Of a stretch of 64,000 nucleotides of DNA, positions 10,572-47,660 are shown piece by piece. The stretch is from Apostichopus japonicus (lineage: Eukaryota; Echinodermata; Holothuroidea; Aspidochirotida; Stichopodidae): the NCBI RefSeq assembly GCF_037975245.1, contig NC_092579.1:17493678-17557677 (forward strand), read 5' to 3'. A model generated the notes under the pieces. The model made no database searches, had not been told where the DNA came from, and was given only the letters and a program-made list of their open reading frames with translations. Positions within the stretch are counted from its first letter, which is position 1. Each line of letters opens with the position of its first letter. The translations under genes were made by a program, and so were the position numbers.

Positions 10572-10737
10572 TCAGCTGCTGTGTTGCACCACAAATTGTA
10601 CAAGGTGGGGAAGGGTGAACGGCTGTTCCTTGGGGTATATCACGCTATTTTCTTTGTGCTTCAGAGGGAACAGTATGACGGTGGGATAGGCGAGAGGAAC
10701 AAACTCCCATGGTAGATCATTCTGATCGCCGTTAATT
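10572..10737 (-). CDS. TXNDC11: TXNDC11 terminal coding exon
   Basis: Residues 660-714, including NDLPWEF, the cis-proline segment AYPTVILFP, and FTLPHLVQFVVQHSS followed by TGA. A good donor (CTCAG/GTAATA) lies at 10535. Skipping one base before it would give DGSDDDDDIGTL, so the stop may reflect a frameshift (see findings). Confidence 0.85.
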
Positions 10738-13700
10738 CTGCAAGTAAAGGGGAAAAAATGTGCGATAAGAACAACTACCTTGTAAAAATTTAAGGGAGCA
10801 AAGATTCAAAACAGGTGTACGATGTAAACTATATTTAAAGACCACCATATTGTTTTCTTCAGGAAATCCTGGGACTGATGTTGACCCCCCACATTGACAT
10901 CAGGCGGGGGAGGGGGGAAGGGGAGGGTCACACAACACGTTAAAACACTTAACATTTTAAGGTACAGGTGGGACTTTGAGGGCATCTCAACGTTTTTAGG
11001 GGTGCTATGTTCATGGATGATGGTTAAATACCCAAGTTTCTGTAATAAATCCTCCACAAAACAGACATTTGTTCAAAATTTTCTGATTATTCAGAGCTAT
11101 TTTTGCACGTTTAATTTGGAAATATGATATCCATTCTAGACACTGTTGGTACGTGTTGTTAAGATGTTCTTAGACTTTTGGATGTCTCGATTCTCACCGA
11201 GAGAGGTTATTCATTATTCGTGACAGTTTTTTGGGATGAATTTACTTTGGACTGAGGAAGTTACGACACGTTTTTACAACAGTTGGCACGATGGTAGAAT
11301 TACAGCAAACAGGTGTGGTGATGTCATAATCTGACACTGCAAAAAAAATTGTTTGCTCTACTTAATTTTCTACTGTACTATTTTGACCTATGGATGAGTT
11401 ATGCTGCAACTTAAGGGGATTTGATGTTAACGATATATGAAAATTATGCTGTATCGACAATGATGCATCTGAATGTCAAGGTAGAAACGGTTGGATGCAT
11501 GTTGAAAAAAACACAAACACACATAATTTGTCGATGTGAATCTATGACTTCTTGCACGTTTGCTTAAATGTTGTTATCGCTACATTAGCACAAAGGAAGT
11601 GAATGCACACTGTACTCTGAAGAGTTTATTGTTTACAGTTCACTAGAAAAATGTACCTAATTAATGGTAGCATACTGCTTTAATTCTTGTACACGACCAT
11701 TTCCTATTCTAGGTTAAGTTGAACCTGAGAAAATATCTAATGCAAACCCTGTCATCAAACCAATATTTCATTAATTTTTATAGTTACATAATATGTGAAA
11801 TAAGACACAACATACAAAGAAAACCTGGATAATCAAAACTTAAACAATAAAAAGAACTGTTTTCTTGTCATGATGGTGGGTCTTAGTTTTCTAATGTATA
11901 TGCTGAAAGTCAAATTCCATTTCTTCCAAAAATAACAGATGAATCCCAAGAGGAGTTAGAAAAATTCCTACGAATAATGCTTACCTTGCAATTACTATAT
12001 TCTCTGATGATTCGAACAGCTGTGCCAGGGCTAAATATATATGAGCTATTCTTTTACAGGCTCCACACCACGGTGTATAGTATAGTAGTACAACATTCTG
12101 TATTAAAGAAAACAAATAGCAGTCAGTCAATTGAAAATATACTATAACCTCTACTACTCAGCCAGAATATGCAAATACTACACAGCCTAGCCTACATAGA
12201 GTTGTGTGTTCAATTAGTGCTATATAGTATGCAGGGTACATCCAGCCTACACAATATTATACAGTATTAAATATTATTCTGTATTAAAGAAAACAAATAG
12301 CAGCCAGTCAATAGCAGACATACTATAACCTCTACTACTCAGCCAGAATATGCAAATACTACACAGCCTAGCCTACATAGAGTCGTGTGTTCAATTAGTG
12401 CTATGTATGCAGGGTACATCCAGCCTACACAATATTATACAGTATTAAATATTATTCTGTATTAAAGAAAACAAATAGCAGTCAGTCAATAGCAGACATA
12501 CAGTATTATAACCTCTACTACTCAGCCAGAAATACACAAATACTACACAGCCTAGCCTACATAGAGTTGTGTGTTCAATTAGTGCTATGTATGCAGGGTA
12601 CATCCAGCCTACACAATATTATACAGTATTAAATATTATTCTGTATTAAAGAAAACAAATAGCAGCCAGTCAATAGCAGACATACTATAACCTCTACTAC
12701 TCAGCCAGAATATGCAAATACTACACAGCCTAGCCTACATAGAGTTGTGTGTTCAATTAGTGCTATGTATGCAGGGTACATCCAGCCTACACAAAATTAT
12801 ACAGTATTATTCTGTATTAAAGAAAACAAATAGCAGTCAGTCAATAGCAGACATACAGTATTATAACCTCTACTACTCAGCCAGAAATACACAAATAATA
12901 CACAGCCTAGCCTACATAGAGTCGTGTGTTCAATTAGTGCTCTATAGGCAGGGTACATCCAGCCTACACAATATTATACAGTATTAAATATTATTCTGTA
13001 TTAAAGAAAACAAATAGCAGTCAGTCAATAGCACACATACTATAACCTCTACTACTCAGCCAGAATATGCAAATACTACACAGCCTAGCCTACATAGAGT
13101 CGTGTGTTCAATTAGTGCTATGTATGCAGGGTACATCCAGCCTACACAAAATTATACAGTATTATTCTGTATTAAAGAAAACAAATAGCAGTCAGTCAAT
13201 AGCAGACATACAGTATTATAACCTCTACTACTCAGCCAGAAATACACAAATAATACACAGCCTAGCCTACATAGAGTCGTGTGTTCAATTAGTGCTCTAT
13301 AGGCAGGGTACATCCAGCCTACACAATATTATACAGTATTAAATATTATTCTGTATTAAAGAAAACAAATAGCAGTCAGTCAATAGCACACATACTATAA
13401 CCTCTACTACTCAGCCAGAATATGCAAATACTACACAGCCTATCCTACATAGAGTTGTGTGTTCAATTAGTGCTATGTATGCAGGGTACATCCAGCCTAC
13501 ACAATACTATACAGTGCTAGACTTTACTACAGCCAGACTTATATATGCATAATAATACTACTAACCTTAGAATCATCAAGTACAATCTCATGGAATGTGT
13601 CTGTTATAACCTCTACTATACAACCAGTGCTAGAAGATGATGATGACACACAGCCGGTGTCTTTCCTCCTGGCTGGAGAGCCACCGGATGTCAAATTACG

Positions 13701-16700
13701 ACGAAGTTCTCCATTAGTAAAGTTAAGTAGAAATTTTTGTAATGAGAGGACGGTGACATCTTCATCAAGAGGATGTAAATAAAATTCTTCATACTGGAAA
13801 AAAAAGGAGAAAGGATCAGAATATCAATTTCTGAGGTTAAAATTCCAAATAGTGAATTCCCACTAACACCATACAATTACGATATTTTTATAATAGCCTG
13901 GTGACTTTATATGATACGAACAAATTCACTGCATTTTGAATAAACAAAATAAATTATATTGAAGGCAGCAGGTGGCCATTTTTAAATAGGAGAACCTGGC
14001 AATTTTGGACTGTCTTTCAGTTGGGCTTGTAGCCACTTTAAGAATGATGTTGCAAAGATAACTGTTAGCGACTGATCAAATAATTGATGAAGTGTGCAAT
14101 GGTAGGAGGTTGTCTAAGTTTGCAAAATAAGAAGAAGAATCAGATGGAAACAAAACTCACCGTTAAGATTGTAATAATTTATTGTAAATTAACAAATTAA
14201 TGAGCTGCTCTTAGACCTACTTTAATGTTAACTAATTAAAAAAAAAAAAAAAAAAAAGGAAACCCTTACCTCTTCATCAATAATAATAGCTACATCACTT
14301 CTCTCATTCAACACAGTTTTCTCAACTCCAAGCCTCTCAGCTAGGACTGAAAAGTATTCCATACGGACGGCAAAGAAATTGACAGAGACATCGGCGATGC
14401 AACTGAGACCTCTAAAGGATTCTAAGACCTTTGCCGACTCCCTATCATATAAAGTTTCACATAAATGTTTTGTTTTATCTCCTTGCCCGTGAGATTCATT
14501 ACTACAATACACACAATCGTGGTCTACGGGGCGACTAGTTCTCCATTTTAAGGTCTGGTCGCAGACGTTGCTATGACGATTTACTAGGTTGTCTCTTGTG
14601 CAGCAGAGTTCACAGTGACTGAAAGGACTGTAGAAGTTATTCAAGTGTCTGCAGTTATTCGGAACTCCGAAGACGGTTTCTCCGAATAACGGCCACAGGG
14701 AATGGCAGGACTTGCCCGCGGTAACGGCACAGTAGTCCAAGTTAAAGCTATAAGAGACGGAAGACTGTTCGCAAATCTGGCAGACGTTTCCCCGGACTCT
14801 GACGGTCTCTGCGGGAACTACTGTTGCGAGTGACTGGCAGCAAGGCTTCGGTACGGTCGACTGAATACAATCCTCTGGAGAATGTGGACTTCTCTTCTCT
14901 TTTATGAACTTGATTATATCTTTTAAGGGCTCTTCCATTTCCTCGCATTGGTAATACTTCATGGCAACTTCTCTGAGCTGTGGGAAAGATCAAAACGCTG
15001 ATGCAGTTAGTAAGGTTTCAAGAAGCTTTGTGCTTCTTATTAAAGGGTTAAAGTGTTGAAAATAAATGTTGGCTTTGTGTTTCATTTTCTTCAACCCTGA
15101 CAAAAATAAAAAGCTCAATAACCTCCACATTCTGCAAGTGACAATATTTTCCAGTAAACGCATAAAACTCCCAATCTATCCATCATGCTCAGTTTCATAA
15201 TATTACTCAGCATTACAAAGTCAAAGTGGTCAATTTGGAAGTGTGTGACCATTGAAGACTGGAGCAACCAGACCTTCCAATGTCAATGGCAATGGTATAA
15301 TGTATCTTACATGCTAATTTTCCTAAATATTATTCATGATACCTTTGCCTACAACACATGTTTCATATCAACCCTTACTTCAAGCCCAAGAATGGTTGCA
15401 CAATTCAAATTTACTGCTTTGGAATTTTGGCTTATATATGGAGTGTTAGCTCAGTGGTTAACACGGGTGCCTTTCAATCATAAGGTCCCGAGTTCGAGTC
15501 ACTTCAAGATTAATGTATGTCGTCCAGTTACAGAGTTGTTGACAATTGACAATTCATAATCATGGATGTTAAATATGAATCTAAGAGACTGACTTTGGTC
15601 AGCTTGCATCTTTGATAAGCCCAATGAGGCATCTTCGCAGTTCCTGCTTGCAGGAGGATCTAAAATACAATACATATTAAGGAAAAGAGGTTGAGCAGAT
15701 ATGATGTTAAGTTATACACGAATCTGCTATTTGTTACGACTAGCATCATATTCACCAGCAGATATCACAAAGACGAGAAACGTATCAGAACAATATTTCA
15801 TCGATAACAGACTTCATTAACACTCACCATATAGTAATTATTCTGATAGCCTCTGTCTTCCTCATCAGTTGTAAATAACAGAAGCGCTGGACCCTTCATT
15901 ATTTGCTGTGATAATATAGTGCTTTTAACACCAGCAGGGGAAATCCATACTACTCTCTGTGGAAGGAAGGGGAAATAGTTACACATTTAGTCTAGTCATG
16001 AGTGGAGAGAAGGTTATTCTCGATATCTTCATATGAGAATTGCTTATTTATTTTCTTTTCCAATGTCTTGCTGAGAGGGGAGGGATAAATAATCCCAAGA
16101 AGTGGACAACGGAACCATTCTGCATGTTGGGAAAGAATTTTGTGGTGAATTTCATCTCAGACTCATTAGACTATTTTTGCGGTAATAAAATAAGGGGTTA
16201 ATCAACGGTCTAGCGTGCGTTACTCACAGGATTAATGCACGATCGGGGGATAATGCAAGCGATGCACGAGGGCGGAGCCCGAGTGCATCCAGCGATAGCA
16301 TTAACACCCGGAGTGCATTAATCATGTGAGTAACGCACGCTAGACCGTTGATTAACCCCGTTCATTCATACACTACCATTTGTGTGGGGGAAAAATCATA
16401 AAACAAAACATTTTTGGTTACATATAACCAAAGATTTATTAAAGTGATGCCCCGTAATTTTACCGTGCGTTACTCACAGGATTAACCACGGTCAGCTGAC
16501 CTCAATGGACCAATAGGATTTAGGAATCTTTACTAAGTATGAATGAACATCTGTTTAATGCTAAAAGGGTAACGATATAAACTCTGCTAAATGTAATTGA
16601 CACATTGAGAGACATTAATGTTGAAAACCCGACTAGATCCTTTCCACTACCGGTATTTAACATGCCCTGCCCTTTTGTTTTTTGAAAAAGCCAAGCAAAG

Positions 16701-26084: not shown

Positions 26085-27130
26085 GTGGATTATAAGAAGC
26101 TGTTTCATCACTTTCTGAACAGAAACCATCTCTTACTTAAAAGTACGGCATCTCCAACTAGAGATTACCAACAAGAGCTTTAAAATATCTTGTTATTCTA
26201 GCTCCCAATGTGATAAATCACCAAAAATTGATCACCATGGCAATCTCCATCGATCGAAATGCCTTTTTTCTATCTATGACGATTTTTGGATCAGGACTCA
26301 TGTCCTCTGTATTTCGCTTCTATTACGTGAAGCTCTTCCTCGATATGTACGGCATTTCACAACCGTGGTTTCAGTTTGCGCAAGTCGTTTATCTGATATG
26401 GAATGCGCTCAATGATCCACTGTTTGCCTACTGGCAGGATAATTCTATGCTTATGGCATTCAGGAGTAGACGGCATTCGATTCTATATGGGGCTCCAGTC
26501 TTTGCTTTAAGTTTTCTACTATTTTGGTTTCCCTGGAGACAGTATGCTACCCACGATTGGATGATAGGACTACATCTGATGGTGTCACTCTGTTGTTATG
26601 ATTCTCTATACACTTTTGTGCTCCTAGCCTACTGTTCACTTTTCGCTGAAATATCAAAAAACTTGGATTACCGGCTGACGCTGACTCGATATAGTCAGGT
26701 CGCTGGCATCTTTTCGTCGCTCTCTGTTACGGCCGTGCAATTTATATCTAACGGACTGGAAGACTTCCATGCTTTTCAGATGTGCTGTATTTGCATTGCA
26801 TTCATGGCTTGGATTTCCATGCATTTCACAGGGAAACATGTCAGGACAAATCCCACTTATAGCTATGACACCCTCATCTCCAATGACGAAGTAGAAAGCA
26901 GTCAGAAGTCAGTAGAAAACGAAGGTTCCTTCCAACAGCCTTTACGTCAGTTGAGACAGATCCTAACCAAAGATTTTGTGGCCTTTGTAGCCACAAATTT
27001 CTTGCAAGTTTTACACATGGAGTACGGGGCCAATTTTATGGTGATATTTGGTGACCAACTGATTCCTAAAGATGACATCTCTGACTTTTCAAGAAAGCTA
27101 TTCTATGGTTCTTCAGCCATTCTACCAACT
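26085..27130 (+). CDS. MFSD13A: MFSD13A copy 1 exon with start codon
   Basis: Begins at acceptor TTTGCAG; coding starts at 26237 and encodes residues 1-298. Its last third (from about 26737) is nearly identical to copy 2, the earlier part clearly less so. Donor GTGAGT. Confidence 0.88.
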
Positions 27131-30100
27131 GTGAGTACAAGAAACCGATGTGTTACACTTTGTGCTTCAAAGCTGCATTTTTTGTTGTGTTTGCTAAAAT
27201 CTGATGTTACTTTATTTGTTACTGTATATATCTGTAATTAATATCTCATCGGGAAGGTTAAAATTAGGCATACCTAATAGTTGGCTAATTAATGTATCTT
27301 GTATTTCTGTATTGGAATTTATGATTAGTAAGTTGCTAACTGTTATGTTTTATTGCTAATTTGCATACCTTTAAACGAGAAGATAACTGCGTTTCCATCC
27401 GTTTGTGATGATATTTGTGATTACTAAGTAAATTATAGTGATACTTTGATATGTCTCACATTGACAATGTGACATCTCTTAAAGCCTGATACCGCCCAAA
27501 CGAAAGATTATTATGCAAACAGTAGATATGTTGGGAGAGTTGTTCATCATCAAGATCTCTATATCTATATCTCTATCATACATTTTCGATGTATATACAT
27601 ATTTATTCACAGGTGGGAAATTTGGAATAAGGGAAATTTCCCAAGCCCTGCCGTGCCTTGTCCATAAATGAATATAAATCGAGTAAACTTCTCATTAGAA
27701 ATCTTCTTGGTGCATTCAATAGCAAATTCTAAATTCACCAAACAGAAACGGGTAAAGGCATGTGTAGCTGTACACAAAGATCATGAGATGAACAGTCGTA
27801 ACACATGGGTGACAACGGACAAACCTTGTATGGGGTGGTGTATAAGTCATCATCAAGAATAATATGCCTAACGAGGATTCTGAAGGGTTTAACAAGGGGT
27901 TGCCTTATCAAATGTCAATGACATTACAAGAAGACTGCTCTTGTAATATTAAAGTATCCATATTTAAGTAAATATACAATTACACACTGTACAGTACATT
28001 ACAAGTTACTGTGTCATTTGTATTCATGTCACTCTCATTTTCATCCACACACATCAAATGAATGATAATGAAATGATAATGTATGTAATCTTTCTTACAA
28101 ACTACAAATACTACTTTTTCTTCTTTCCAGATTGTGGTTTTTGCACTTAGCCCTATAATCGCCAACCACGGTTACTTCAGAATGATAATATTGACCAACT
28201 ATATCAACGTAGTGTTAGCCATGGCAATGTACTTTATAGGACCCTCCCACACTTGGATATTTGTAGCGTATCTGCTAATTGACAGGTAATTTGCATAATT
28301 CAACTAATTACACCTTTCTTCCATGCGGAGGGCTACTGTTCCTGAAAACTGGAGGGTACGGACAATTATGTATGTATTTTAGATCCTCCTGCAAGCAGGA
28401 ACTCACGAAGAAGCCTCATTGGCTTATCAAAGTCGCAAGCTGACCGAAGTCAGTCTCTTAGATTCATATTCATATCCCCGGTAAGAGTCACTCCAAGATT
28501 AATGTACTGTATGTCGTCCAGTAACAGAGTTGTTGACAATTAACAATTCATCATCATGGACGTTAAATATGAATGTAAGAGACTGACTTCGGTCAGCTTG
28601 TGGCTTTGATAAGCCAATGAGGCTTCTTCGCAAGTTCCTGCTTGCAGGAGGATCTAATATATATACATACACATAGTAGACATGTATGATAAATGGCTTG
28701 CAGACTTCAGAAAACCCAGGGAACTGTGTAGAAAAATACCTTCCATTATACTAATGTACCGAATAAAACTGTTCACAATATATCCTGCAAGTTGAATACA
28801 GAGAAGAATAAGCTACCATTCATAGAATTATGATAGTTTGCAGGAATATTAATTATTCAAGGTCAGTAACAATTTAAGAAGTTTTCAGATCATCCAGATG
28901 TATATTTGGTGTTGGAAAAAAATAAAAACATACACAGTTTTGTGCAGCTGACTAAGCTAATATAGTATATTGTTTATTGATTTTTGTTCACTTGTTCATA
29001 CTGTGCAGCTTATGTATCTAGAAACAATATTGGCAATACAAACATGAACAGGCTATCAGTTACATTATTCACCCAGTATGTTGTAGGAACAGTTTGATTG
29101 TAATATAGTGGGTCTGGTATTGCTGTACAAGCTAAAAGTATTCCATAGGGATTCCTGCAGTACTATTTCATAGTGATGTATGAAATCAATATTTAAATCT
29201 CGGTCTGGGTTTTATTTTTTGTTGGGTACCTGTAGTTTAAGAAATTGAATAATATACTATTTATAGAAGTTGTAAATCGGGTTCAAGGTATGAATCAACT
29301 CACAAATTTATTATTAGAATGTTAGATGCTTATTTATTTTTGGAAGGAGGGGAGGGAGGGGGAGGTGGTGGAACTTTTGTAACATGACTAAACTTGTTAT
29401 TAGAAAATATTTAATGTGGATGATATCTTTACATATCATCATGTTGCTAATGCCATAATATTGATGTCAAATTGAATTATGTACAGTACAGTAGCTTTGA
29501 TGTACATTACCAGCGCTGTGTGTTAGTCCACATATCCTGATATCCAACTGTCTAAGCTCAACTATATTCAGTGCGAGTCAAGCCCTCTCACCCGCCCGCT
29601 CACCCTCCAACTCCGGGTCCCCCTCCCCTTCCCCGAGTTGTTGTGATACAGAGACTTGCCACATCATATAGTTTTTAAATCGCTGTACAGTTTTTGTTGT
29701 TGTGAATTGTAGTCTGTGCGAAAGATAGCTTTTAATCGAGTCAAGGCCTCTAATACTATAATGAGAAAGTTTCATATATAAAATTTGGGGGTCCATATAT
29801 AAAGAACCCTTTGGTCAAATCTAAAAAGACACCCACAGAAATGATCTACTTATCCATAGCATTTTACAAACCATCTCAACCATCCCTTAAAGCCAGCTCA
29901 GTTGAATGTCCTGGTCGGCAAAACGTATTGAACATACTACTATGCTTACTAGCAAAACTGAATACGGTTATAAACTATTCTTTCAAATATCTTGAAAAAC
30001 CTGATAAGACAGAAACTGGACGATAATTGTCACTAACTTCAGGGTCACCTCTTCTATATCTACCAATGACTATGGCTATTTTCAATTGATCGGGATTCAT

Positions 30101-33058
30101 ACAACCAGATAGAGATAAATTAATAATGTAAGCAAGAGGCTTAAAGAATAAAAAGGTATTAATACTTTTCTTATCATGGAAGGGATTATGATATCAAAAT
30201 CGGCAAATTGTTCTAGTTTCAAGGTTCGCAATCCATTCATATTCAGTGAAGCGTTATTAGAAGAGAGAAAAGACAAGCATTTTGTCATGCCCATGTATCT
30301 ACAGTAGAACTATAAACATGGTAAAGAAGAGTAAACCTAACATCAGCATACTGTAGATTAGAACTATAACATGGTAAAGAAGAGTAAACCTAACATCAGC
30401 ATACTGTAGATTAGAACTATAACATGGTAAAGAAGAGTAAACCTAACTTCAGCATACTGTAGATTAGAACCGTATAACATGGTAAAGAAGAGTAAACCTA
30501 ACTTCAGCATACTGTAGATTAGAACCGTATAACATGGTAAAGAAGAGTAAACCTAACTTCAGCATACTGTAGATTAGAACTATAACATGGTAAAGAAGAG
30601 CAAACCTAACTTCAGCAAACTGTAGATTAGAACTATAACATGGTAAAGAAGAGTAAACCTAACTTCACCATACTGTAGAATAGAACTATAACATGGTAAA
30701 GAAGAGTAAACCTAACTTCAGCATACTGTAGATTAGAACTATGACATGGTTAAGAAGAGTAAACCTAACTTCAGCATACTGTAGATTAGAACTATAACAT
30801 GGTAAAGAAGAGTAAACCTAACTTCAGCATACTGTAGATTAGAACTATAACATGGTAAAGAAGAGTAAACTTAACTTCAGCATACTGTAGAATAGAACTA
30901 TAACATGGTAAAGAAGAGTAAACTTAACTTCAGCATACTGTAGATTAGAACTATAACATGGTAAAGAAGAGTAAACCTAACTTCAGCATACTGTAGATTA
31001 GAACCGTATAACATGGTAAAGAAGAGTAAACCGAACTTCAGCATACTGTAGATTAGAACCATATAACATGGTAAAGAAGAGTAAACCCAACTTCAGCAAA
31101 CTGTAGATTAGAACTATAACATGGTAAAGAAGAGTAAACCTAACTTCAGCATACTGTAGATTAGAACTATAACATGGTAAAGAAGAGTAAACCTAACTTC
31201 AGCATACTGTAGATTAGAACTATAACATGGTAAAGAAGAGTAAACCTAACTTCAGCATACTGTAGATTAGAACTATAACATGGTAAAGAAGAGTAAACCT
31301 AACTTCAGCATACTGTAGATTAGAACTATAACATGGTAAAGAAGAGTAAACCTATAACTTCAGCATACTGTAGATTAGAACTATAACATGGTAAAGAAGA
31401 GTAAACCTAACTTCAGCATACTGTAGATTAGAACTATAACATGGTAAAGAAGAGTAAACCCAACTTCAGCATACTGTAATTTCTCTATATTCTGGGGTTC
31501 ATATGACAATGCACACTAAGAAATGTTAATTACATAGGTATTCTACGCCATTGTGTTTGCCATAGGTACAGTAGTGTATTGTTAAGTGTTTACTCAGTGT
31601 GCATGTTATAAACAGAACCACATGCTGATGTATTGTACTTGCAGGTATACTGACTGAATGATTGGCACAGTAGCTAGCATACAGTATGTTAGTGGCAAGG
31701 TACAGTATACCAGCATGATGGCATCAATGTTTAGTATGTAGAAAAGATATATGGGCATTTGAAATGTTGCTTAAGATTTATATCAGAGGAAATAAATAGA
31801 GAAATATAAAAAAAAAAAAAAAATATTGCAGAAACAAAATCCTAATTTATCACCTTCAGCGATGGTATGTGATGAGAACTAATTAGAGACTAGCTTGGAA
31901 CTGTCTTGCCTGTTTGTCATCTAAAATGTCAGTACTTGGGCTTGAAAACTGGTTTATCATGATCTTTTTCTTACATTTTGTTTTTGATTCCTTGCCGGAG
32001 GCAGAAGGAATTTCTATATGATGGTGACGGGCATGTTTGTGTTCATGTTGTGACACTTGCTTGTAAACATCGTAACTCAAAAATTATATGGTGGATTTAA
32101 ACTTAATACTTGGTGCGTGGATCTGTCTTATTGAGTAAAAGAATGCTATTGTTTTCTGTGAAGTTCAATGGTAAAGAGGTAAAGTATGAAAACTTTGAAA
32201 TCTTTGTTGAACTTCATTCATGGTATCCTTACCAATGGATTATTAAAAGGGTTGATGCCACACAAGGGATAGTGCTAAAAAGAAGAGCTGCAGATCTCTT
32301 CTGGTTGTCGCTTAATTCCTGGACTAATTTAACCCACTCGCTCTACGTTAGTCAGATAGTTATTTGGAATTCTGAGTATATTGAAAGGCAACTTTTCACA
32401 AATTATCCAACTGGCATTTTGGTTATTTTTACTTTTTCAGATGTATGTCATCTTTTGTGTTTTCCTTCTTCAACCTTCCGCTGTCCGACATCATTGATCT
32501 TGATCAAGAAAAATACGACAGGAAGTAAGTTTTAGACTCATTTATAAAGGAGGGGCTCTGTCTTGCTCCAAATTATGCTACAAATTATCCCAAAATGATT
32601 ACTTTCAAATCCTTACAAATCTGTTTACCGACACTTCTCAGCTTTTTCTCTCACGGTTATGTACTTGTTTGTTTTATTTGAAATTGCTCAATGTCACGGA
32701 CGATCTACAATTTACATGATTTTTGCTATTCGTTCAGATTAGATCGTTTCTGATTCTCTCCTTTTTATATTCAATCAGGACACCGTTGTCCAGTAGTGTC
32801 TTCGGCTATAACGCTCTGTTCACCAAACCGGCCATCTCCATCGCACCGATGTTGGTTGTCGCCATCCTAAACGGTTACGGGTACGAATCTCTCCAGACGG
32901 ATAGCCTCACGTCTCAGGAATACAGCTCTCTGAGGAACGCTATGTTCAACATTACTTGTTTCTTCCCGTTGGTACTGAGTGCGTGCAGAATTTACACCTG
33001 GAGTAAATACAGCATTCGTACGTCACACTCTCAAGTAGCTCGCCACATTGAATCTTGA
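26237..33058 (+). CDS. MFSD13A: MFSD13A/TMEM180-like transporter, copy 1
   Basis: Four coding exons (26237-27130, 28131-28285, 32441-32524, 32779-33058) give 470 residues, close to vertebrate TMEM180 (517). The start ATG at 26237 has an excellent Kozak context (ATCACCATGG), and an acceptor at 26084 shows an upstream untranslated exon. Recognisable features are FSGLM-like transmembrane 1, the MFS segment WNALNDPLFAYWQD (a GPH-type N-D-P loop), many hydrophobic helices, and VFGYNALFTKPAISIAP in the last exon. The family is a multi-pass membrane protein of the MFS/glycoside-pentoside-hexuronide-like group; the substrate is unknown. A paralog follows 14 kb downstream in the same orientation. The splice model is fully in frame. 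Confidence 0.9.
27131..28130. other. MFSD13A copy 1 intron 1
   Basis: AT-rich. The first 12 bases match copy 2, then the introns diverge. A short ATCTCTATATC simple repeat lies near 27555. Confidence 0.45.
28131..28285 (+). CDS. MFSD13A: MFSD13A copy 1 exon 2
   Basis: A 155-base exon encoding two hydrophobic helices (VVFALSPIIANHGY... and MYFIGPSHTWIFVAYLLID). Acceptor TTTCCAG, donor GTAATT. Confidence 0.87.
28381..28661. mobile_element. Inverted pair of SINE bodies
   Basis: 28381-28466 is the inverse complement of the SINE tail seen at 15590-15662. 28470-28661 is the same body in forward orientation, including CAGTAACAGAGTTGTTGACAA and TTCCTGCTTGCAGGAGGATCT. The two copies form a large hairpin in intron 2 of MFSD13A copy 1. 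Confidence 0.75.
29640..30300 (-). mobile_element. Decayed non-LTR retrotransposon RT fragment (CR1/L2/Jockey-like)
   Basis: Minus-strand frames show reverse-transcriptase hallmarks in the right order: YRRGDPEVSDNYRPVSVLSG, then PGHSTELAL, then VGVFLDLTKG, then HYSIRG...IKSYLSHRLQF. Frames are broken by stops and shifts, so the fragment is dead. It lies in intron 2 of MFSD13A copy 1 and differs from the Jockey-like copies at 51-63 kb. Confidence 0.7.
30303..31478. repeat. Minisatellite, about 22 units of 53-54 bp
   Basis: Unit: ACTGTAGATTAGAACTATAA, then CATGGTAAAGAAGAGTAAAC and CTAACTTCAGCAT. Units are nearly identical, with small variants (ACCGTAT, AACATC, CAAACT). It lies in intron 2 of MFSD13A copy 1. 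Confidence 0.95.
31479..32440. other. MFSD13A copy 1 intron 2, remainder
   Basis: AT-rich with an A run at 31809-31822. The open frame at 32110-32535 is the retained intron plus exon 3, not an independent gene. Confidence 0.45.
32441..32524 (+). CDS. MFSD13A: MFSD13A copy 1 exon 3
   Basis: 84 bases encoding CMSSFVFSFFNLPLSDIIDL..., matching the family's cytoplasmic DLVDED-like segment. Acceptor TTTTTCAG, donor GTAAGT. Confidence 0.87.
32779..33058 (+). CDS. MFSD13A: MFSD13A copy 1 terminal exon
   Basis: Encodes TPLSSSVFGYNALFTKPAIS and the last helices, ending ARHIES, then TGA. The tail codons belong to a repeat that continues into the 3' UTR. Acceptor AATCAG. Confidence 0.88.
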
Positions 33059-33170
33059 TTGGTCAGAGGTGGCATTCCCGATTAACTCGCCGCATCGGAA
33101 CAGGATCGATTGTAAGTCACACGCCCAATTAGCTCGATCAACGTGCCGAAACCTGATTGCCAGTTTAATA
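33020..33170. repeat. Short tandem repeat across the MFSD13A copy 1 stop codon
   Basis: GTCACACTCTCAAGTAGCTC, then a variable ATTGAATCTTGATTGG-like stretch, recurs in diverged form about 90 bases downstream (GTCACACGCCCAATTAGCTC...GAAACCTGATTGCC). This is the same unit expanded after copy 2. Confidence 0.6.
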
Positions 33171-34547
33171 CGACACAGAGACTTCCTACCTACTGAAATA
33201 TGTATTGAAATCTGATTGGTGGAAATATAGTAGAAATTGGTTTTACCAGGAGATTTCTAAGTGTTGGGAACTTGGGATACATTTTTAAGGAACACACAAA
33301 ATGACTGAATGTCCCATTGAGGTTAATTTCCTCAAAGGTTGTAATAAAAACAGTTTAAGAATTTTGACCGAAGGTGACCTTATTTGACTATAGATCTAGC
33401 ATATGTGGTGCCAATACAGCCTATGGACCTTTAAAGTTATCCCGATGAGAAAAGGTGGATCTTTCAGTATGACTAAACCCTGACCTTGTGGTAACAATTC
33501 TACAGCTATCAGCTAGCAATCACTTGTGTTTTCAGGATGTCCAATAATAAGATTAGCAAACACAATTGCTAAGTATTCTTGTCGTTTAATATTACTTGTG
33601 TTAATTTGCGTATCAATTATAACATGCTGGAATGCATCTTGTGGACCTCTTCCGTGAGCGCTATATCAAAACAATTTATCTCAATAAGATCTCCATACCT
33701 TCCTTTATTTAATACAACTATTGATTCTAAATGCATGAACAGAGTTTGTTAACATTAAAATAGGAACTAGGAAGTCACAACAATCGTATTGAACATTTTG
33801 TCATTTTTTCGATCAGTCTTGTCAGAACGTTATAATCCTTCCATATGACTTTCTGTTTTCTTGCACGGTGCCATTTAGAGGTCACAATACCTTGCAACCC
33901 AAGTAACCAGGGATAATCACACCCCAATTTCATTCCACAGGACCACAAAATTCTGAGGTCAAAGACAATATCTTTGCTCTTTGCAATTTTTTTTTTTTTT
34001 TTTAACAGACATTCACAAAGTAATTCCCATCTTCTCTGACATAATGTTTCTGTTCCAATTAATAATGTTAGTAATATGGAAGAGAGTTTATACGGCATAT
34101 TACAACTGGTCTCCTAACAATGCATTTGCCAGTTAGTTTTGATCACTTTTCTTATTCTGTTTGAGCCTAACATGTGTAGATTCACATAATGAAGTAATCT
34201 TCATTTTTTTTTTTTTTTTCATTTTCCAATTTGCTATTCAGTGTGTTATTATACAACTATGACGAATATTAGAATTGCAAACAATGATGAGAATTTAAAG
34301 GAATTTATTTAGTTAATTTCCTCATTTAGGTTCATTTTGAGAAAGAAATGTCACCGAGGTCGCCTTGTAAAGGAATATCAATTGGAATTAATCTCGTACT
34401 GAATACTACACAATATTAATTTTGTGGATCTGCTGGTAAAATTAAAACTTTGCATAAACATCTGATATCCTCGTATGATGTCAACAAGTTGTAGCAATTA
34501 TTAGCTTCAAGATTTTTTTATTACGTACCTGTATAAATTTCTGTTGG
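33171..34547. other. Intergenic DNA downstream of MFSD13A copy 1
   Basis: AT-rich, with T runs near 33989-34004 and 34206-34219. No gene recognised. Confidence 0.4.
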
Positions 34548-35105
34548 AGTTCTTATTATGACCTGCACAAAGCAATTTCTACAAATGAGCCTAACAACAC
34601 TAACAGATTCTCTGTCAGTGTTGATTCTATACAGTTGGAAGTATATTTACATAGGAGTTCTTATTATGACCTGCACAAAGCAATTTCTACAAATGAGCCT
34701 AACAACACTAACAGATTCTCTGTCAGTGTTGATTCTATACAGTTGGAAGTATATTTACATAACAATATCTACAAATGAGCTTAACAACACTAACATATTC
34801 TCTGTCAGTGTTGATGCTATACAGTTGGAAGTATATTTACATAACAATTTCTACAAATGAGCTTAACAACACTAATAGATTCTCTGTCAGTGTTGATGCT
34901 ATACAGTTGGAAGTATATTTACATAACAGTTTATACAAATCAGCTTAACAACACTAACAGATTCTCTGTCAGTATAGATTCTAAACAGTTGGAAGTATAT
35001 TTACATAACAATTTCTACAAATGAGCTTAACAACTGTAACAGATTCTCTGTCAGTGTTGATTCTATACAGTTGGAAGTATATTTACATGACAATTTCTAC
35101 AAATT
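34548..35105. repeat. Minisatellite, about six units of 82-107 bp
   Basis: Core unit ACAATTTCTACAAATGAGCT, then TAACAACACTAACAGATTCT, CTGTCAGTGTTGATTCTATA and CAGTTGGAAGTATATTTACA. The first two units carry an extra GAGTTCTTATTATGACCTGC insert. Confidence 0.93.
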
Positions 35106-40089: not shown

Positions 40090-41126
40090 GTGTGAAAGGA
40101 TATATGTTATCGGAAGATCAGGAAGCTACATAGTTGCCTTAATGCATCTCCCTTGTTAAACTTTCTTCAACAACTGTATGTGAAATCCATTTTTGAGGTA
40201 CTGTGCTTAACATTGGGGAATCCATCATCATGTCTGTCTTCTCCATAGACAGAAATGCATTCTTTCTGTCGTTGACTCTATTTGGATCCGGGCTCATGTC
40301 ATGCGTGTTTCATTTCTATTACGTCAAACTTTTCTTAGATAAGTATAACATTTCCCAACCGTGGTTTCAGTTTGCACAAGTTGTTTATCTGATATGGAAT
40401 GCCATCAATGATCCACTGTTTGCATACTGGCAGGATAATTCCAAGATGGTCGCATTTAGGAGTCGACGTCATGCGATTCTCTATGGGGCACCGCTCTATG
40501 CCCTTTGTTTTCTACTATTTTGGTTTCCATGGAGAGATTATACTAATCATGATTGGCTGACAGGAGTGCATCTGATGGTGGCACTCTGTTGTTATGATTC
40601 CTTGCTGACCTTTGTCCTCCTTGCCTACTGCTCTCTCTTTGCTGAAATTTCAAAAGACCTGGATTATCGACTTACACTTATGAGGTATGGAAAGGCCGCC
40701 GGCATTTTGGCATCTACCTCGGTCACTGCTTTGCAATTCATATCTAACGGACTGGAAGACTTCCATGCTTTTCAGATGTGCTGTATTTGCATAGCATTCA
40801 TGGCTTGGATTTCCATGCATTTCACAGGGAAACATGTCAGGACGAATCCCACCTATAGCTATGACGCACTCATCTCTAGTGACGAAGTAGAAAGCAGTCA
40901 GAAGTCAGTAGAAAATGAAGGTTCCTTCCAACAGCCTTTACGTCAGCTGAGACAGATCCTAACCAAAGATTTTGTGGCCTTCGTAGCCACAAATTTCTTG
41001 CAAATTTTTCACAAGGAATATGGAGCCAATTTTATGGTGATATTTGGTGACCAACTGATTCCTAAAGATGACATCTCTGACTTTACAAGAAAGCTATTCT
41101 ATGGTTCTTCAGCCATTCTACCAACT
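40090..41126 (+). CDS. MFSD13A: MFSD13A copy 2 exon with start codon
   Basis: Acceptor TTTTGCAG at 40089; ATG at 40230; donor GTGAGT. From about 40733 to the donor it is about 95% identical to copy 1 (counted by eye). Confidence 0.88.
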
Positions 41127-44100
41127 GTGAGTACAAGAACCAATGTAAACAGCTTTCCATGTTGTATTTCAAAGACAGATTTTTCCAAGCTTTCTTTTGG
41201 AATCCACGTACTGTACACAGATTAATTAGAACACAAGTGTCATTGAAATCATGTGAAACTTTGGTAAATATTAAAGTACGTAGGCCTAGTAATGGCATTG
41301 CTGTGTAACATAGATAATGTGGTGTTACATTATGTTGTGTTACATTATGTTTATGTTGTTTATGTTGATTTATTTTATACTGTCTGACTGCATTGTACAA
41401 TAACTGTTTTAAGCAAATTTTAATAGGAAAGTCTTGTTGTGTTCACCTGACTTTGAAACCCCTCACACTGTCTTGATAAATTTACAACATGAGTTACACA
41501 ATAAATTTGATGAAGGAGAAATGCACTGTTTAGACTTAATTGTCCAATCTGTGTGAAATCTTTTATATTTTCCCATGTAATATCCAAGTCTTTTAGTCTA
41601 TGAGTCATGATTGAAGTGAATATATTAGAGTCTTCTTTCTAATTTTCACAATCTTTTACATATTCTTCTTTCTACAGCTGACAGTGTTTGCAGTAAGCCC
41701 TGTGATTGCTATACATGGGTATTATAAAATTATCGTATGGACTAACTATCTCAACATACTGTTAGCCATAGGAATGTATTGCATAGGATCGTCCCACACT
41801 TGGATACTTGTAGCATACATGTTAATTGACAGGTAATTTGCATAAATATGATTAAATTCATGTTCATACTTTTACATTGTGAGACATTCAGGTTTAATAG
41901 ATTCATTAACATTTTTACTAGCAATATTATGTTCAATATGATCAGGTTTAGATAGATTAGAAAAAAGGGGTATTGTTAGTTTGATCAATGTTATAATTTG
42001 TGAGATATTTAAACAACTTATCAACATACTATAGCCCAGTTGTGTGATGTAATGATTTCATTTTCCTTGTGGGTTTCATCAGCAACTGAAAATTTGCTCA
42101 ACCATTTTGTGAAATTAAGTTACTTAGAATTACTTTCACATGATTAGATCTTTGTGATAAAATAATGAACATTGTTTTCTGGCAATAACGGGCAGGGCCG
42201 CAGGGGTGTTGTAAATTTGAGCAATAGTAATAATTCATGGAATGCTCAACTATTATATTGTAGTAACATTAGTATTTAATATCAAGATTGAGTAAATCAT
42301 AACCCAATAGTATGATGTGAAGATTTCATGTTCGTTGGTGCTTCATCAACAACCAAAAATAGAGCAAAGTTCTGTTTCATAAAATCGCGGCAATTCTAGT
42401 GTTTTCAGTCTCCAAACTGCAGTCCCTTGCATTGCAATGCATTAACTCTCTGCGTAGATGTTGAAAAAGAATTTTATTTGAAAACTCTTTAAAGCTTTGG
42501 AAAAACATTTGCTACCTATTCAACTGTATCAATTAACATGACTCATGTGATCTGTTTTGTTTACCATTGTTGGTGAATATCAATTTAAAAAACAATCGTA
42601 AACAATTAAAGTAATTTATTATTGGGACTAACAAGTTAAATCACAAACCTCAAATTTGTATTAAAGCTACTACAATCACTGGGTTTAAAAAGGTTCATCG
42701 CCTTTAATGTTGATCATATAAACATGTCCAGTACATTTTCATAACCGCACAAACTGATCCGTTCAGATATGTACTGGGTGTAATCATGGAGGTAAAACAG
42801 ACTCCATGGTGTAATTAATACTAACGGAAAGCTGTCATTACATCTATTCTGTGAAATAACCTCAATTACAAGACTTTTCCTGACTAACCATGCTTTTTAC
42901 ATAGATATCATCTTTTATCATTCTAGGAAATGAAATATTTTTCTTTTTCATTGCATACATAACAACAGAGTACTAGGCTATCAGTACCCAGGCCATGAAT
43001 ACCATGGTTACCTTTAATATTTTCTTCCATTTTCATTGTTTACAGGTGTCTGTCATCTTTTGTGTTTTCCCTATTCAATCTTACTCTCTCTGACATCATC
43101 GACGTAGATCAAGCGAGATTCAACAGAAAGTAAGCTCATTTAAAGCTAAGTGTATCAGTGGAGAGCGTTGTGGTCAAGTGGTTAAGGCAGTGGACTTGTG
43201 ATCTAAGGATTACAGGTTCGAGCCCTGGCCAGATCATTGCGTTGTGTCCTTGGGCAAGGCGCTTTATCTCCATTGCCTCTCTTCACCCAGGTGTATAAAT
43301 GGGGACCTGCGAGGTAACTTGTAAATATAGTTGCGTGCGCCGGTTTGTGGCTGCACCCTATGGGAAGTCCCCCGGGGGACACGTGGTTGTGGTGCACTGT
43401 GGTGCCCCAGGAGAGATTGATTGAATTGTGCACACTTTGGTGTGTGGGTGTGACAAGTTACCAATGACCAGGGGTTAAGTTTTAAAGTCGTGTGAGGAGG
43501 CATTAGCCTCATACAAGACTGTAAACCTTCAACTTCAACTTCAACTTTATCAGTACTGCTGTGAAATATGCTAGAGACTTAAAACTTGGTCGCTTGGTGA
43601 ATTCACATGATCGCTCAAGTTAACTACTGTGGTTGATGGCTGGTAAGTCTAGTCACTGAATTTGCATTTTGCATTGGTTGTCATTTTGGTTTCGATGATA
43701 ATCGTAACCTTTGCATTCATGATGGCGTATGTGTGTAAGTGCGTGTGCGTTTGTGATGCCCAGCTTGTAAACACAATATCTCAAAAAGGGGAGGTCGGAC
43801 CAATTTCATATTTGGTGTGTAGAAGAACCACATTAAGTACAAGACGCCTATCATTTTTGGCAGAGTTGAAAGGTCATTTTGGGTCACCAGGGGTCAAATT
43901 GTGAAAACCTTGTAAACACGATATCTCAAGAAGGGAAGGTCGGATCAACTTCATAGTTAGTGTGTAGATGAGCCACATTAAGTACAAGAAGCCTATTGTT
44001 TTTGGTGGAGGTCAAAGGTCATTTGTAGTCACCAGGGGTGAAATTGTGAAAACCTTGTAAACATGATATCTCAATATGGACGGATGTCATATTTGTTTTG

Positions 44101-47100
44101 TAGATGTACCATATCAAATTTAAGGAGCCCAGTATTGCTGTTGGTGGAAGGTCACTTGAAGTCAACAAATGCGAAACATTTACTTCACTCCCCTCTTATC
44201 TGTCTCTTTACACTAACACACCATCCTAAACATAATATCGCAAGGGAAGCTTGGACAGATTGCATATTTGGTATGTAATTGTACCACATTGAGTACAAGA
44301 AGCCTAATGTAGTGGGCGGAGGTCAATGGTTGTATGAGTTCACCCGGGGTCAAATTATGAAAACCATGCTTATTTCCAAAATATTTCAGCAAGAACAGAT
44401 GTCATATTTAGTATGTTGATGTATCTATCACATTTAGTACAAGAAGCCTGTTGTTGAGGTTAATGGTCGATTCAGGACAGCCTGTGTCATTGTGAATTTA
44501 TTGTCTGTCACATCACACTGCTTTTCACTGTATTACTAAGATCAAGTATGTTGTACACCCTCACTATACATTACGTCAGATTCATGAAGAAAACTGCTCA
44601 TGTTACATCATCAAAACCACAATGCTTGTTTGCATTCTTTTTATTTCACTGCGTAATACTTACCAGGGAGTTGCTAGAAGGAGAAACAATTCCAGTCATT
44701 TGTACAACGTCCATATTTCACAATAATCTATTGATATATTTTCTGCGAACATTTAAATCTTGGCTTTTGTTTCAGATCAGCAAACTGAATATCAGAATCA
44801 TACATGGAAGTGGCTTTTAAGTCCAAATGTCTGCATTGATGTAATATTGACAATAATCATGATGAAATTGCAACATTTGTTGAGTTTTTGACACAAATAT
44901 GAATAAATAGTATCAATGCATTGAAGTAATTCTTTTGTTCCAAATTGCTCAAAAGTACACAGGTGTTTGTCTATACTCTTGCTAAGATAATGGAGTAATG
45001 CAAATGTGGGGGTGGGGAGAGTTGAAGGAGGTGGTCTGGGAGGAGGTAGGTGGAGGGGGGGAGAAATAACTTGGAAGTTATTATTCAGTAGCTTGCTCAA
45101 ACAAGTTCATGGTAATTCTACACCTCTGTACTCTGTTGTTGTCTGTTATGAAATTATTTTGATTAGAACATTTTGTTTCAGGACTGGATAAGAGTGGTGG
45201 TTGAGCTAGAGAAAAGTCCTGTCCGTGAACAAATTTGGCATGACAAAGATTCAAGCCCATGTTCAAAGCATCCTTAATTAAACCTTAAAAATATTAGAAG
45301 CAAATGCAATCCTTCTCTAACAACTCTCTGCTTCTAAGGATTGGTTAGAAGTACTTATTAAATTCACCTGCTATGGAATGGTTGGTTCTAAATAAACAAA
45401 TAAAGCTGAAGTATTTTTTGTTGCATGTATTGACATTTTTTAAAGATATTTTATTATTTCATTGTTGAGTGTCCTGCAAGATGCTAAACAAGGAAGGATA
45501 TATTTTGAGGAAAAGAAAGCAGTAGTTGGTATTGAACCAGGGACCTCCTGCTGCCAAACCAATTTCTCTACCACTAGACCATTAGGTGGGAGAAAGCTCT
45601 TCCTTGCTTTTCAAATATTTAAAGATCCAGTTGTTTGGACTTAGTGTTAAGTGTTTTTATAAAACATTTTCTCCACTGATCCTTGTCAGGGAGAGTTCAT
45701 AATGGAAGGAAAGAGGTATAAGAATAGAAAAAAGAAATTGGCTTCACTGGGGTTTGAACCCTAGACATTGAGTTTGTCAGACACAGAGCACTACCACTGC
45801 ACCACTGTAACTGAGGAGACTTAAAAAAAAAATACGGAAAAGCCTGTTGGCTTTGAGATTCCTTGCCATATACGTTGCTCAAAATTTCAAATAAGTGAGG
45901 CAATTTACCAAGCGTAAAAGTAGTGAGAGATATTGAAAACTGGATACGATTTGTGAGGAGAACCAGGAAAGACTTCATCACACCAGGAATTCTCAGGACT
46001 AGAATTTTGTTGATCCTGCTTTTTGGTTTCGATGATAATCTTAACCATTGTAGTCATATGCGGATGTGTGTGTGTGTGTGAGACGCATTGCTCGTAAACA
46101 CGATATCTCAAGAAGGGAAAATTGGACCAATTTTATATTTGGTGTGTAGGAATACCACATTGAGTAGAAGAGCCATATGTTTTCTGGGAGGTCAAAGGTC
46201 ATTTGGGGTCCCCAGATTTCAAATTGTGAAAACATGTAAACAAGATATCTCACGAAATAGAGCTTTGACTAATCTCATATATAGTATATAGTTGTGACAC
46301 TTTGACTTCAAGTTCCTTATTAATTTTGGTGGAGATCAAAGGTCATTTGGCATAACAAATCTTGTTATACTTGGCATGTGCATGAATCATATTGAATCAT
46401 ATTGAAGTTTATTGTGTAACGTGGAGGTTAAAGGTCATCTGAGGTCACCAGATGTCAAACACTGAAAACCTTGTAAACACTATATCTCAAGTTAGGAAGA
46501 ATGGAGATTTAACTTGTGATATGGTGTTACAAGTGGCATGCATTATATTGAAAAGAAAAACTCAATTGCTTTTGGCAGAGGTCAAAGGTCATCTGGGTCA
46601 CCAGCAGTCAAACTCTGGAAACCATTTAAACATGATACGGTATCTCGTGGAAGAAATCAGGACATTTATATTATAATATCTGTTTCTGGTGAATAATCAG
46701 AAGTCTACTGCAATGAAGTAATCAAAACTTCAATGCAATTTTGCATTCTGGTTTCAATATTCTGACCAATATTTTGTTCATAGTTATTTTAGCAAACCTT
46801 ACTGTTTAAAAAGACCAAATTAGAGACTTAATTTATAGCCTAAACATGCCTCAGAATGCACCATTTTCATGTTTCAAATTTTAATATTTTCTATGAGAGG
46901 ATCACCACTCTTTAACCTGTTTACAAAGAGAACTCTTTGATCCAATTGTAATACATGAGATGGATTGTTCCTATCCTCATTTTGCTCCCATTTCATCTGC
47001 ATGTCTTTTTAGCTGTTTCCTTTTTGTTTTATTTTTGCCCAGGACACCGTTGTCCAGTAGTGTCTTCGGCTATAATGCTCTGTTCACCAAACCGGCCATC

Positions 47101-47322
47101 TCTGTCGCTCCCATGGTGGTCGTTGCCATCCTAAACGGTTACGGGTACGAAGCTCTCCAGACGGATAGCCTCACGTCTCAGGAGTACAGCTCTCTGAGGA
47201 ACGCTATGTTCAACATTTCTTGTTTCTTCCCGTTGGTACTGAGCGTAAGCAGACTTTACACCTGGAGTAAATACAGCATTCGTAAGTCACACTCCCCAGT
47301 AGCTCGTCATGTTGAAACTTGA
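40230..47322 (+). CDS. MFSD13A: MFSD13A/TMEM180-like transporter, copy 2
   Basis: Four coding exons (40230-41126, 41678-41832, 43046-43129, 47043-47322) encode 471 residues. Exon lengths are 897, 155, 84 and 280, against 894, 155, 84 and 280 in copy 1, so the gene structure is identical. Starts MSVFSIDRNAFFLSLTLFGSG; contains WNAINDPLFAYWQD and VFGYNALFTKPAIS. Same inferred role as copy 1: a multi-pass MFS-type membrane protein of unknown substrate. All splice sites are consensus and all frames are open, so both copies look functional. Confidence 0.9.
41127..41677. other. MFSD13A copy 2 intron 1
   Basis: AT-rich, with a TTACATTATGT microsatellite-like stretch near 41325-41365. No element. 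Confidence 0.4.
41678..41832 (+). CDS. MFSD13A: MFSD13A copy 2 exon 2
   Basis: Encodes LTVFAVSPVIAIHGYYK... to AYMLID. Only about 70% identical to copy 1 at the DNA level, in contrast to the flanking exons. Acceptor TCTACAG, donor GTAATT. Confidence 0.87.
41833..43045. other. MFSD13A copy 2 intron 2
   Basis: AT-rich. Two diverged copies of a segment containing TGATGT.A.GATTTCAT...TCATCA.CAAC (about 42040-42100 and 42310-42360) suggest an old duplication. No gene. Confidence 0.4.
43046..43129 (+). CDS. MFSD13A: MFSD13A copy 2 exon 3
   Basis: 84 bases encoding CLSSFVFSLFNLTLSDIIDV. Acceptor TTTACAG, donor GTAAGC. Confidence 0.87.
43160..43547 (+). mobile_element. Complete tRNA-derived SINE with CTTCAA tail
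   Basis: About 388 bp. The head contains GTGGTCAAGTGGTTAAGGC (A box) and ACAGGTTCGAGCCCTGGCC (B box). The body contains GGGCAAGGCGCTTTATCTCC, and the tail is CTTCAACTTCAACTTCAAC. It is flanked by a 7-bp target duplication TATCAGT (43153-43159 and 43548-43554). The intact structure suggests recent insertion into intron 3 of MFSD13A copy 2. Confidence 0.88.
43690..44470. repeat. Tandem repeat of ~135-bp units (GATATCTCAAGAAGGG...GGTCAAAGGTCAT)
   Basis: About five diverged units, each with TTGTAAACACGATATCTCAA, a CATATTTGGTGTGTAG segment, CACATTAAGTACAAGAAGCC and GGTCAAAGGTCATTT. The same family, with the same leader TTTGGTTTCGATGATAATC, recurs at 46022-46640. Confidence 0.85.
44471..45460. other. 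MFSD13A copy 2 intron 3, middle part
   Basis: AT-rich with a G-rich tract at about 45008-45062. No gene recognised. Confidence 0.4.
45500..45690 (-). repeat. tRNA-like repeat, inverse copy of 56390-56560
   Basis: On the minus strand it contains AGTGGAGAAAATGTTTTATA, ACTAAGTCCAAAC, GGATCTTTAAATATTTG, then ACCTAATGGTCTAGTGGTAG (A-box-like) and GGTCCCTGGTTCAA (B-box-like). All of these are also present in order at 56390-56560. Confidence 0.7.
45735..45815 (-). repeat. Single tRNA-like unit related to the 54-56 kb array
   Basis: The minus strand reads GTGGTGCAGTGGTAGTGCTC, then TGACAAACTCAATGTCT and GGGTTCAAACCCCAG. This is the same order of motifs as the tandem units at 54370-55925. Confidence 0.68.
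46022..46640. repeat. Second block of the GATATCTCAAGAAGGG / GGTCAAAGGTCAT repeat
   Basis: About four diverged units of the family at 43690-44470, preceded by the same TTTGGTTTCGATGATAATC leader and a TG microsatellite (46065-46081). Confidence 0.82.
47043..47322 (+). CDS. MFSD13A: MFSD13A copy 2 terminal exon
   Basis: Encodes TPLSSSVFGYNALFTKPAIS... to ARHVET, then TGA. About 91% identical to copy 1 (counted by eye). Acceptor TTGCCCAG. Confidence 0.88.
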
Positions 47323-47660
47323 TTGGTCGTCCTCCCGTACTTGCCATATTACAACCTGATTGGTCCTTGACCATACTTTCAAGTGTCTTGCTATTTTGAA
47401 ACCTGATAGGTCATTTTTCATACTCCCCAGTAGCTCACCATGTTAAAACCTGATTGAAAGCAAGTCACACTTCCCATACTTCGCATATTAAAACCTGATA
47501 GGTCCGTATTCATACCTTCCAGTAGCTAGATCTGTTGAAACCTGTTTTTTTTTCATTCTCCCCTGAATGGTCAGTAAACCTATTGAAACCTGATTAGCCT
47601 TTTGTCATACTCCCAAGTACCTTACCATATCTAAAACCTTATTGATCATAAAGTCACACC
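47280..47660. repeat. Tandem repeat spanning the MFSD13A copy 2 stop codon and 3' UTR
   Basis: About five or six diverged units of 60-70 bp share CATACTCCCCAGTAGCTC.CCATGTT.AAACCTGATTGGTC. The first unit encodes the C-terminal tail (KSHSPVARHVET) and supplies the TGA stop; the rest form the 3' UTR. Confidence 0.78.

Follow-up and report, generated by a model that had tools for sequence, protein, structure and literature searches.

The window analysed here, i.e. the whole 64,000-nt stretch from Apostichopus japonicus, carries on its minus strand a gene whose predicted protein is probably TXNDC11-like. We take this name from its resemblance to human TXNDC11, chiefly in the exon 10 stretch, and regard it as probable. 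Exons are numbered as in an earlier reading of the letters without database searches (the sequence-only reading). Percentiles given below rank a site among sites already picked for strength, since the weight matrices were built only from sites of the same genome that scored at least 2 in our survey (78 donors, 81 acceptors). The features of the gene needed here are:

10575..10737, minus strand: exon 10, ends approximate, reading ...QNDLPWEF..YPTVILFP...
11985..12097, minus strand: exon 9, 113 nt, beginning NVVLLYYTPWCGACK... and carrying the CxxC; donor AAG|GTAAGC at 11984, 77th percentile
12068, minus strand: weak inner donor of exon 9, GTG|GTGTGG; score 5.94, 8th percentile
12095..13515, minus strand: minisatellite in intron 8 whose eight units measure 165-184 bp, with an incomplete unit at the donor side; the AB dimer has 355 bp, and the array extends over the first 3 nt of exon 9
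12098..13565, minus strand: intron 8, 1468 nt
13560..13565, minus strand: authentic donor of intron 8, AAG|GTTAGT; 38th percentile of 78 surveyed donors
13566..13793, minus strand: exon 8, 76 codons, ending ...VEVITDTFHEIVLDDSK; its acceptor, CCAG, has its last base at 13794; in-frame junction with exon 9 gives a thioredoxin fold
13604..13627, minus strand: stretch of exon 8 resembling an array unit in 21/24 nt, suggestive only

When exons 8, 9 and 10 are joined they encode a single thioredoxin domain that contains WCGAC (Pfam Thioredoxin, 7e-14) and match the yeast-type PDI 2b5e in the PDB (2.1e-29). Exon 8 ends in phase 0. It is from this joined reading that 12098 is taken as the authentic acceptor of intron 8. 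The human protein is described as having a CXXC in Trx5 only, and once this CXXC was mutated the protein no longer functioned in a degradation assay (PMC4906395). Missplicing that affects exon 9 would therefore have consequences. A further paper treating TXNDC11 and EDEM2 seems to have little bearing on the array (PMC8570694).

The array takes up 1421 nt of the 1468-nt intron and thus almost fills it, as the sequence-only reading had described. TRF on 12095-13515 returned either a period of 178 with 7.9 copies (score 2345) or a period of 355 with 4.0 copies (score 2549). A 14-mer, CTGTATTAAAGAAA (minus strand TTTCTTTAATACAG), recurs at 12098, 12279, 12457, 12641, 12812, 12996, 13167 and 13351. 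The claim that every unit repeats the exact acceptor of exon 9 proved too modest: the final 25 intronic nt (CTGCTATTTGTTTTCTTTAATACAG, ending CAG) are invariant in all eight units, and AAT directly follows the acceptor in each. In the unit alignment a second stretch of 25 nt is equally invariant. One authentic acceptor and about seven decoys had been counted, and the number of decoys is exactly seven; the decoy positions given at that time were off by 1-5 nt and are corrected as follows:

12098..12122, minus strand: authentic acceptor, 25 nt, unit U1
12279..12303, minus strand: decoy acceptor, U2, predicted reading NNI*
12457..12481, minus strand: decoy acceptor, U3, NNI*
12641..12665, minus strand: decoy acceptor, U4, NNI*
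12812..12836, minus strand: decoy acceptor, U5, NNTV*; unit identical to U7
12996..13020, minus strand: decoy acceptor, U6, NNI*
13167..13191, minus strand: decoy acceptor, U7, NNTV*
13351..13375, minus strand: decoy acceptor nearest the donor, U8, NNI*; the intron would be 215 nt

Counted from the exon 9 side the units follow the order A-A-B-A-B-A-B-A, the B type being marked by an insertion. The unit alignment showed U5 and U7 to be identical and U4 and U6 to agree in 98.2%, which makes it likely that the last growth of the array was recent. Identity to the closest partner amounted to 97.3-100% for U3-U7, 95.0% for U1 and U2 and 94.2% for U8; by these values the middle and donor-side inner units are homogenised and the edges less so, although the inner unit U2 fits this picture less well.

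Homology of the array into exon 9 ends at +3. Beyond these 3 nt we found no likeness to exon 9 on the exon side of the decoys, the best score of 18 being reached by 482 of 500 shuffles. Because only 3 nt of exon 9 are common to the units, the array barely spans the exon boundary. In six other arrays of the genome that lie over splice sites the exon part measures 6-89 nt, with 38 nt at locus L034; at L136 it is about 69-70 nt. In five decoys (at 12253-12288 and four corresponding positions) the exon side falls within a nested duplication, 17 bp long, of the end of the acceptor; in the second copy CAG is changed to CTG.

That the array grew out of the real splice site had already been suggested, and an end 3 nt inside exon 9 is what such an origin leads one to expect. 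A simple model would be a single duplication with its breakpoint at AAT, followed by growth in dimers. A segment of about 178 bp, with the breakpoint at the AAT three bases inside exon 9, would have been duplicated in tandem, whereby each copy would have received a branch-point-like motif, a pyrimidine tract and CAG; the array would then have grown mostly by 355-bp AB dimers.

Three other origins were weighed against this model. A mobile or satellite element (an introner or a dispersed satellite) that inserted into the intron and by chance supplied an acceptor would agree with an array taking up nearly the whole intron, 1421 of 1468 nt. In a search of 671.6 Mb in 35 contigs, which skips very common words and masked stretches, the 355-bp stretch 13166-13520 nevertheless gave five matches, all of them inside the array, and the 14-mer occurs 24 times in the genome, eight of these in the array, against 22 times for its reversed control. 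A dispersed element is therefore rejected as far as this search reaches, and we hold such an insertion to be highly improbable. An assembly artefact deserves even less credence: tandem arrays are prone to misassembly, but A and B types and diverged edge units are not what collapse or stutter makes, and arrays of other units lie at splice sites in four more gene regions (C4, C17, C19, C23). The third possibility is that intron 8 and its array stem from an older duplication that covered the end of exon 8, so that the unit would hold a decayed piece of this exon. Outside the array, the best match of the unit within the 64 kb is indeed exon 8 on the same strand (21/24 nt, E 0.018), with a score reached by 0/500 shuffles, although the best shuffle came within 0.5. 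That part of the unit also has a likeness in the opening 50 nt of intron 8, with a score that 1/2464 control pieces and 9/500 shuffles reach. The exon 8 match is short and AT-rich, however, and 2/534 control segments score equally high. We consider this origin unlikely; it would be compatible with the reading of the array as a splice-site minisatellite that is developed below.

Scored unit by unit with the local weight matrix, as the sequence-only reading had proposed, all eight acceptors tie at 10.13, which is the 52nd percentile of 81 surveyed acceptors, so that by local score the decoys are full acceptors. The next AG of intron 8 reaches 4.01 with the same matrix. A branch-point-like TTGAC lies at -30 in all eight units, and CTGAC is found at -26 in six of them including the authentic one. 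The proposal had been thought open to refutation if the branch point were not repeated; with TTGAC at -30 in every unit this part of the objection does not apply. The outcome predicted for decoy use agrees with the letters: a stop in the frame of exon 8 would follow in 7/7 cases, as NNI* in five and NNTV* in two, and the frame would end before the CxxC. Immediate stops would be expected of almost any AT-rich intron, and we see in them no sign of design. The best donor inside the units scores 3.52, below all 78 surveyed donors. Measured to the donor at 11984, the predicted exon is 113 nt long from the authentic acceptor and 294, 472, 656, 827, 1011, 1182 and 1366 nt from the decoys. The inner donor at 12068 would shorten each decoy exon by 84 nt, giving about 210 nt for the nearest decoy.

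Splice sites multiplied by a minisatellite are a known but little-studied kind of array. The term mirage, a minisatellite-like duplication of an intron-exon boundary, was introduced for amphioxus Adh3 and also applied to globin genes; the same report describes mirages whose length differs between haplotypes and RT-PCR without interference with regular splicing (PMC3087553). Further amphioxus cases are PGBD5 and troponin C (PMC3902484). As far as these accounts go, the array in intron 8 resembles the mirages of Adh3, BflGb6, BflGb9, troponin C and PGBD5 in that tandem repeats multiply the splice signal at an intron-exon boundary, the units here carrying the signal of the adjoining exon in 8/8 cases with 25 nt invariant. 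It also resembles them in unit length (165-184 bp against 150-160 bp in BflGb6), in the homogenisation of inner units over edge units as in the globin mirages, with the reservation for U2, and in that several genes of one genome are affected. It differs by occurring in another phylum, the echinoderms, and by its eight acceptors, its 3 exonic nt and its filling of the intron, where the units of BflGb6 are described as including the 5' part of exon 2 in 6 or 3 copies. The amphioxus globin and Adh3 cases are also backed by RNA data. Thus the kind is known from amphioxus, and it is the phylum and the rough frequency estimated below that look new. Among the matches listed in our literature search, which left most subscription journals outside its scope, no title or abstract named an echinoderm splice-site minisatellite.

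The human gene IFI6 (6-16, G1P3) reportedly contains a minisatellite with multiple splice donor sites; that repeat also copies a splice site, but the copies are donors and the unit is reportedly much shorter. Other known systems share single traits with the array. Variable internal tandem repeats in human segmental duplications are described as recruiting cryptic splice sites through minisatellite expansion, yet there the repeats, some 30 bp long, extend exons or become introns, whereas the present array lies within an intron and multiplies an acceptor that was already there (PMC2812944). Intron gain by tandem duplication also duplicates splice signals but requires a new intron from exonic sequence (PMC4974935). 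Recursive splicing provides extra intronic acceptors as well, but the ratchet points described need an AG directly before a donor (PMC8605326); the array acceptors read CAG|AATAAT in place of AG|GT, and we reject a ratchet point. An introner or other dispersed element, for which copies at many sites would be expected, was dropped on the five genome matches all lying in the array (in a search that skips very common words). A paper on worm minisatellites and alternative splicing seems to have little bearing on the array (PMC4039745).

We therefore read the array of intron 8 as a splice-site minisatellite, or mirage, in which the copy at exon 9 is used and the seven decoys are mostly ignored, and we regard this reading as quite probable. 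The copy adjoining exon 9 would stay in use as the sole one to define a short exon of 113 nt with the donor at 11984, which is strong. Its seven counterparts, equally strong but 294-1366 nt away from that donor, would mostly be passed over; with a short exon available from the exon-proximal copy only, splicing probably stays correct. Erroneous splicing to a decoy would lead to a stop at once and the product would presumably be degraded. We infer that exon definition acts as the selector, that nonsense-mediated decay removes errors, and that the array is nearly neutral and varies in copy number.

Against this reading stands co-transcriptional splicing on a first-come basis. It would favour the decoy at 13351, which the polymerase reaches about 1250 nt ahead of the authentic acceptor and which would give an intron of 215 nt, whereas exon definition would select the correct copy. 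Nor is the argument from exon length absolute, since the weak donor at 12068 together with the nearest decoy gives an exon of about 210 nt. Both points would also speak for a working ladder of poison acceptors, in which the decoys take a regulated share of splicing and the length of the array sets the output of TXNDC11. A ladder of this kind would be in line with eight acceptors of equal score that carry branch-point-like motifs, with the immediate stops behind the decoys and with the observation that 0/7 decoys have decayed. In an array so young (U5 = U7), however, decay is not expected, and the other 25-nt stretch is equally invariant. The units further lack a donor of surveyed strength, and amphioxus mirages are reported to splice normally (PMC3087553, PMC3902484). 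A 355-nt stretch also shows no unusual RNA fold (z -0.42, with 32/100 shuffles as good), and a special fold was rejected. On balance we find no support for the view of the sequence-only reading that the decoys compete in practice or tune output; we think a regulated ladder improbable and prefer the mirage with decoys mostly ignored.

We surveyed 134 further exons of the same genome, taken from the top of the lists for Pfam families: 28 + 18 myosin, 22 thioredoxin and 26 + 40 kinesin. The 40 kinesin and 18 myosin pieces had flanks of 250 nt and show copies within about 250 nt only; the other 76 loci (28 myosin, 22 thioredoxin, 26 kinesin) comprised three kilobases each. Exon ends were set at the best-scoring GT or AG near the Pfam match, as scored by splice frequencies. 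From the thioredoxin set L051 and L052 were left out, both being decoy copies of the exon piece in L041. The short-piece set left out 14 rows: 7 kinesin and 6 myosin rows in frames longer than 200 aa, and a kinesin row interrupted by five stops (C21:18086660). This frame and stop filter was applied to the short pieces and not to the three-kilobase sets. L136 and L138, both taken by list order, lie inside L009 and L029, whose arrays had already shown.

Duplicated donors were found in 6/131 cases (L004, L025, L034, L041, L046, L138) and duplicated acceptors in 1/133 (L136), the seven cases stemming from about five gene regions. Five of the six duplicated donors lie in tandem arrays, and at L025 a block of about 100 nt is copied 220 nt downstream. 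Counting the authentic site, the donor is intact and equal-scoring in 20/20 copies at L034, present as GT in 36/37 copies at L046, and intact in 19/19 copies at L004 and 3/3 at L041. At L046 two donors score equally, and the decoy at 1676 was picked by the script instead of 1635; the donor of L004 is weak (2.8 by survey frequencies, 6.1 by the genome weight matrix). At L138 an array lies over the donor with the site intact in its copies. At L136 the end of an intron, together with about 70 nt of the following myosin exon, is present three times, with the acceptor intact.

These counts suggest that duplication affects about 5% of donors, with a 95% interval of 1.7-9.7%, and some 1% of acceptors, with an interval of 0.02-4.1%. 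The percentages may not carry to the whole genome because of large differences between gene families: myosin gave 4/46, thioredoxin 3/22 (together 7/68) and kinesin 0/66. The first kinesin set, analysed as a repeat test with the criterion fixed beforehand, gave 0/26 duplicated splice sites. A bias of donors over acceptors is not established (Fisher p 0.065). Since acceptor-side duplication was rare in the survey (1/133), the TXNDC11 array is atypical even in its own genome, a point that, like the 0/66 in kinesin, weighs against the mirage reading.

Of all bases in the 76 three-kilobase loci, 10.6% belong to arrays. In these loci 1036/8056 flank 24-mers (12.9%) have a copy in the same locus, against 5/149 at splice sites, so the notion of splice sites as hot spots for arrays is unsupported. 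Among higher-scoring sites duplicated donors (5/37) equal the background and acceptors (0/37) lie below it. On the donor side, 4/21 array edges begin inside the exon and 0/21 in the first 123 nt of the intron, which hints towards hot spots. Minisatellites are produced in large number by this genome, and arrays over splice sites may be that part of them which splicing tolerates.

Eight acceptors that share the same 25 intronic and next 3 letters and differ mainly in position constitute a natural test of 3' splice site choice, in which transcription order, intron length and exon definition can be separated; for donors, L034 and L046 provide the counterpart. Should arrays of this type be common in an echinoderm as well as amphioxus, the multiplication of splice sites would be recurrent or deuterostome-wide, which would be relevant to how introns are gained and to mistakes in gene prediction. 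One may go further and picture splice-site minisatellites as a standing genome-wide source of variation, with a few percent of sites multiplied and loci like TXNDC11 acting as fast-mutating, copy-number-dependent dials, but we doubt this and put it forward as speculation.

Several other features were noted. In the mitochondrial COX1 of the genome AAA stands at a conserved Asn and ATA at a conserved Ile, which fits the echinoderm code. Besides COX1 in C35 (16,099 bases), partial COX1 stretches occur at two places in C29 (31,219 bases), which are either a nuclear mitochondrial copy or a sign of a misassembled mitochondrial contig. Within the window, an array at 54288-55923 has a 163-bp unit in 9.7 copies, whose wording we take to be like the A-box and B-box of tRNAs; ARAGORN and Rfam gave no match to it, and Rfam found no known RNA family at E 0.1 in window positions 10000-64000. 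Tandem MFS_2 transporter genes lie at 26162-33064 and 40197-47328, 77-91% alike in four conserved blocks, and each has its own intron minisatellite with different units. The arrays at 30305-31478 and 43764-44074 are at least 630 nt away from the blastn-conserved blocks of the two genes and so do not lie at the ends of these block exons, the only exons considered. An array with 108-bp and 82-bp units follows at 34546-35104, past the final conserved block in the first of the two MFS_2 genes, and a reverse-transcriptase fragment (Pfam RVT_1, 2.4e-19) is located at 60932-61537.
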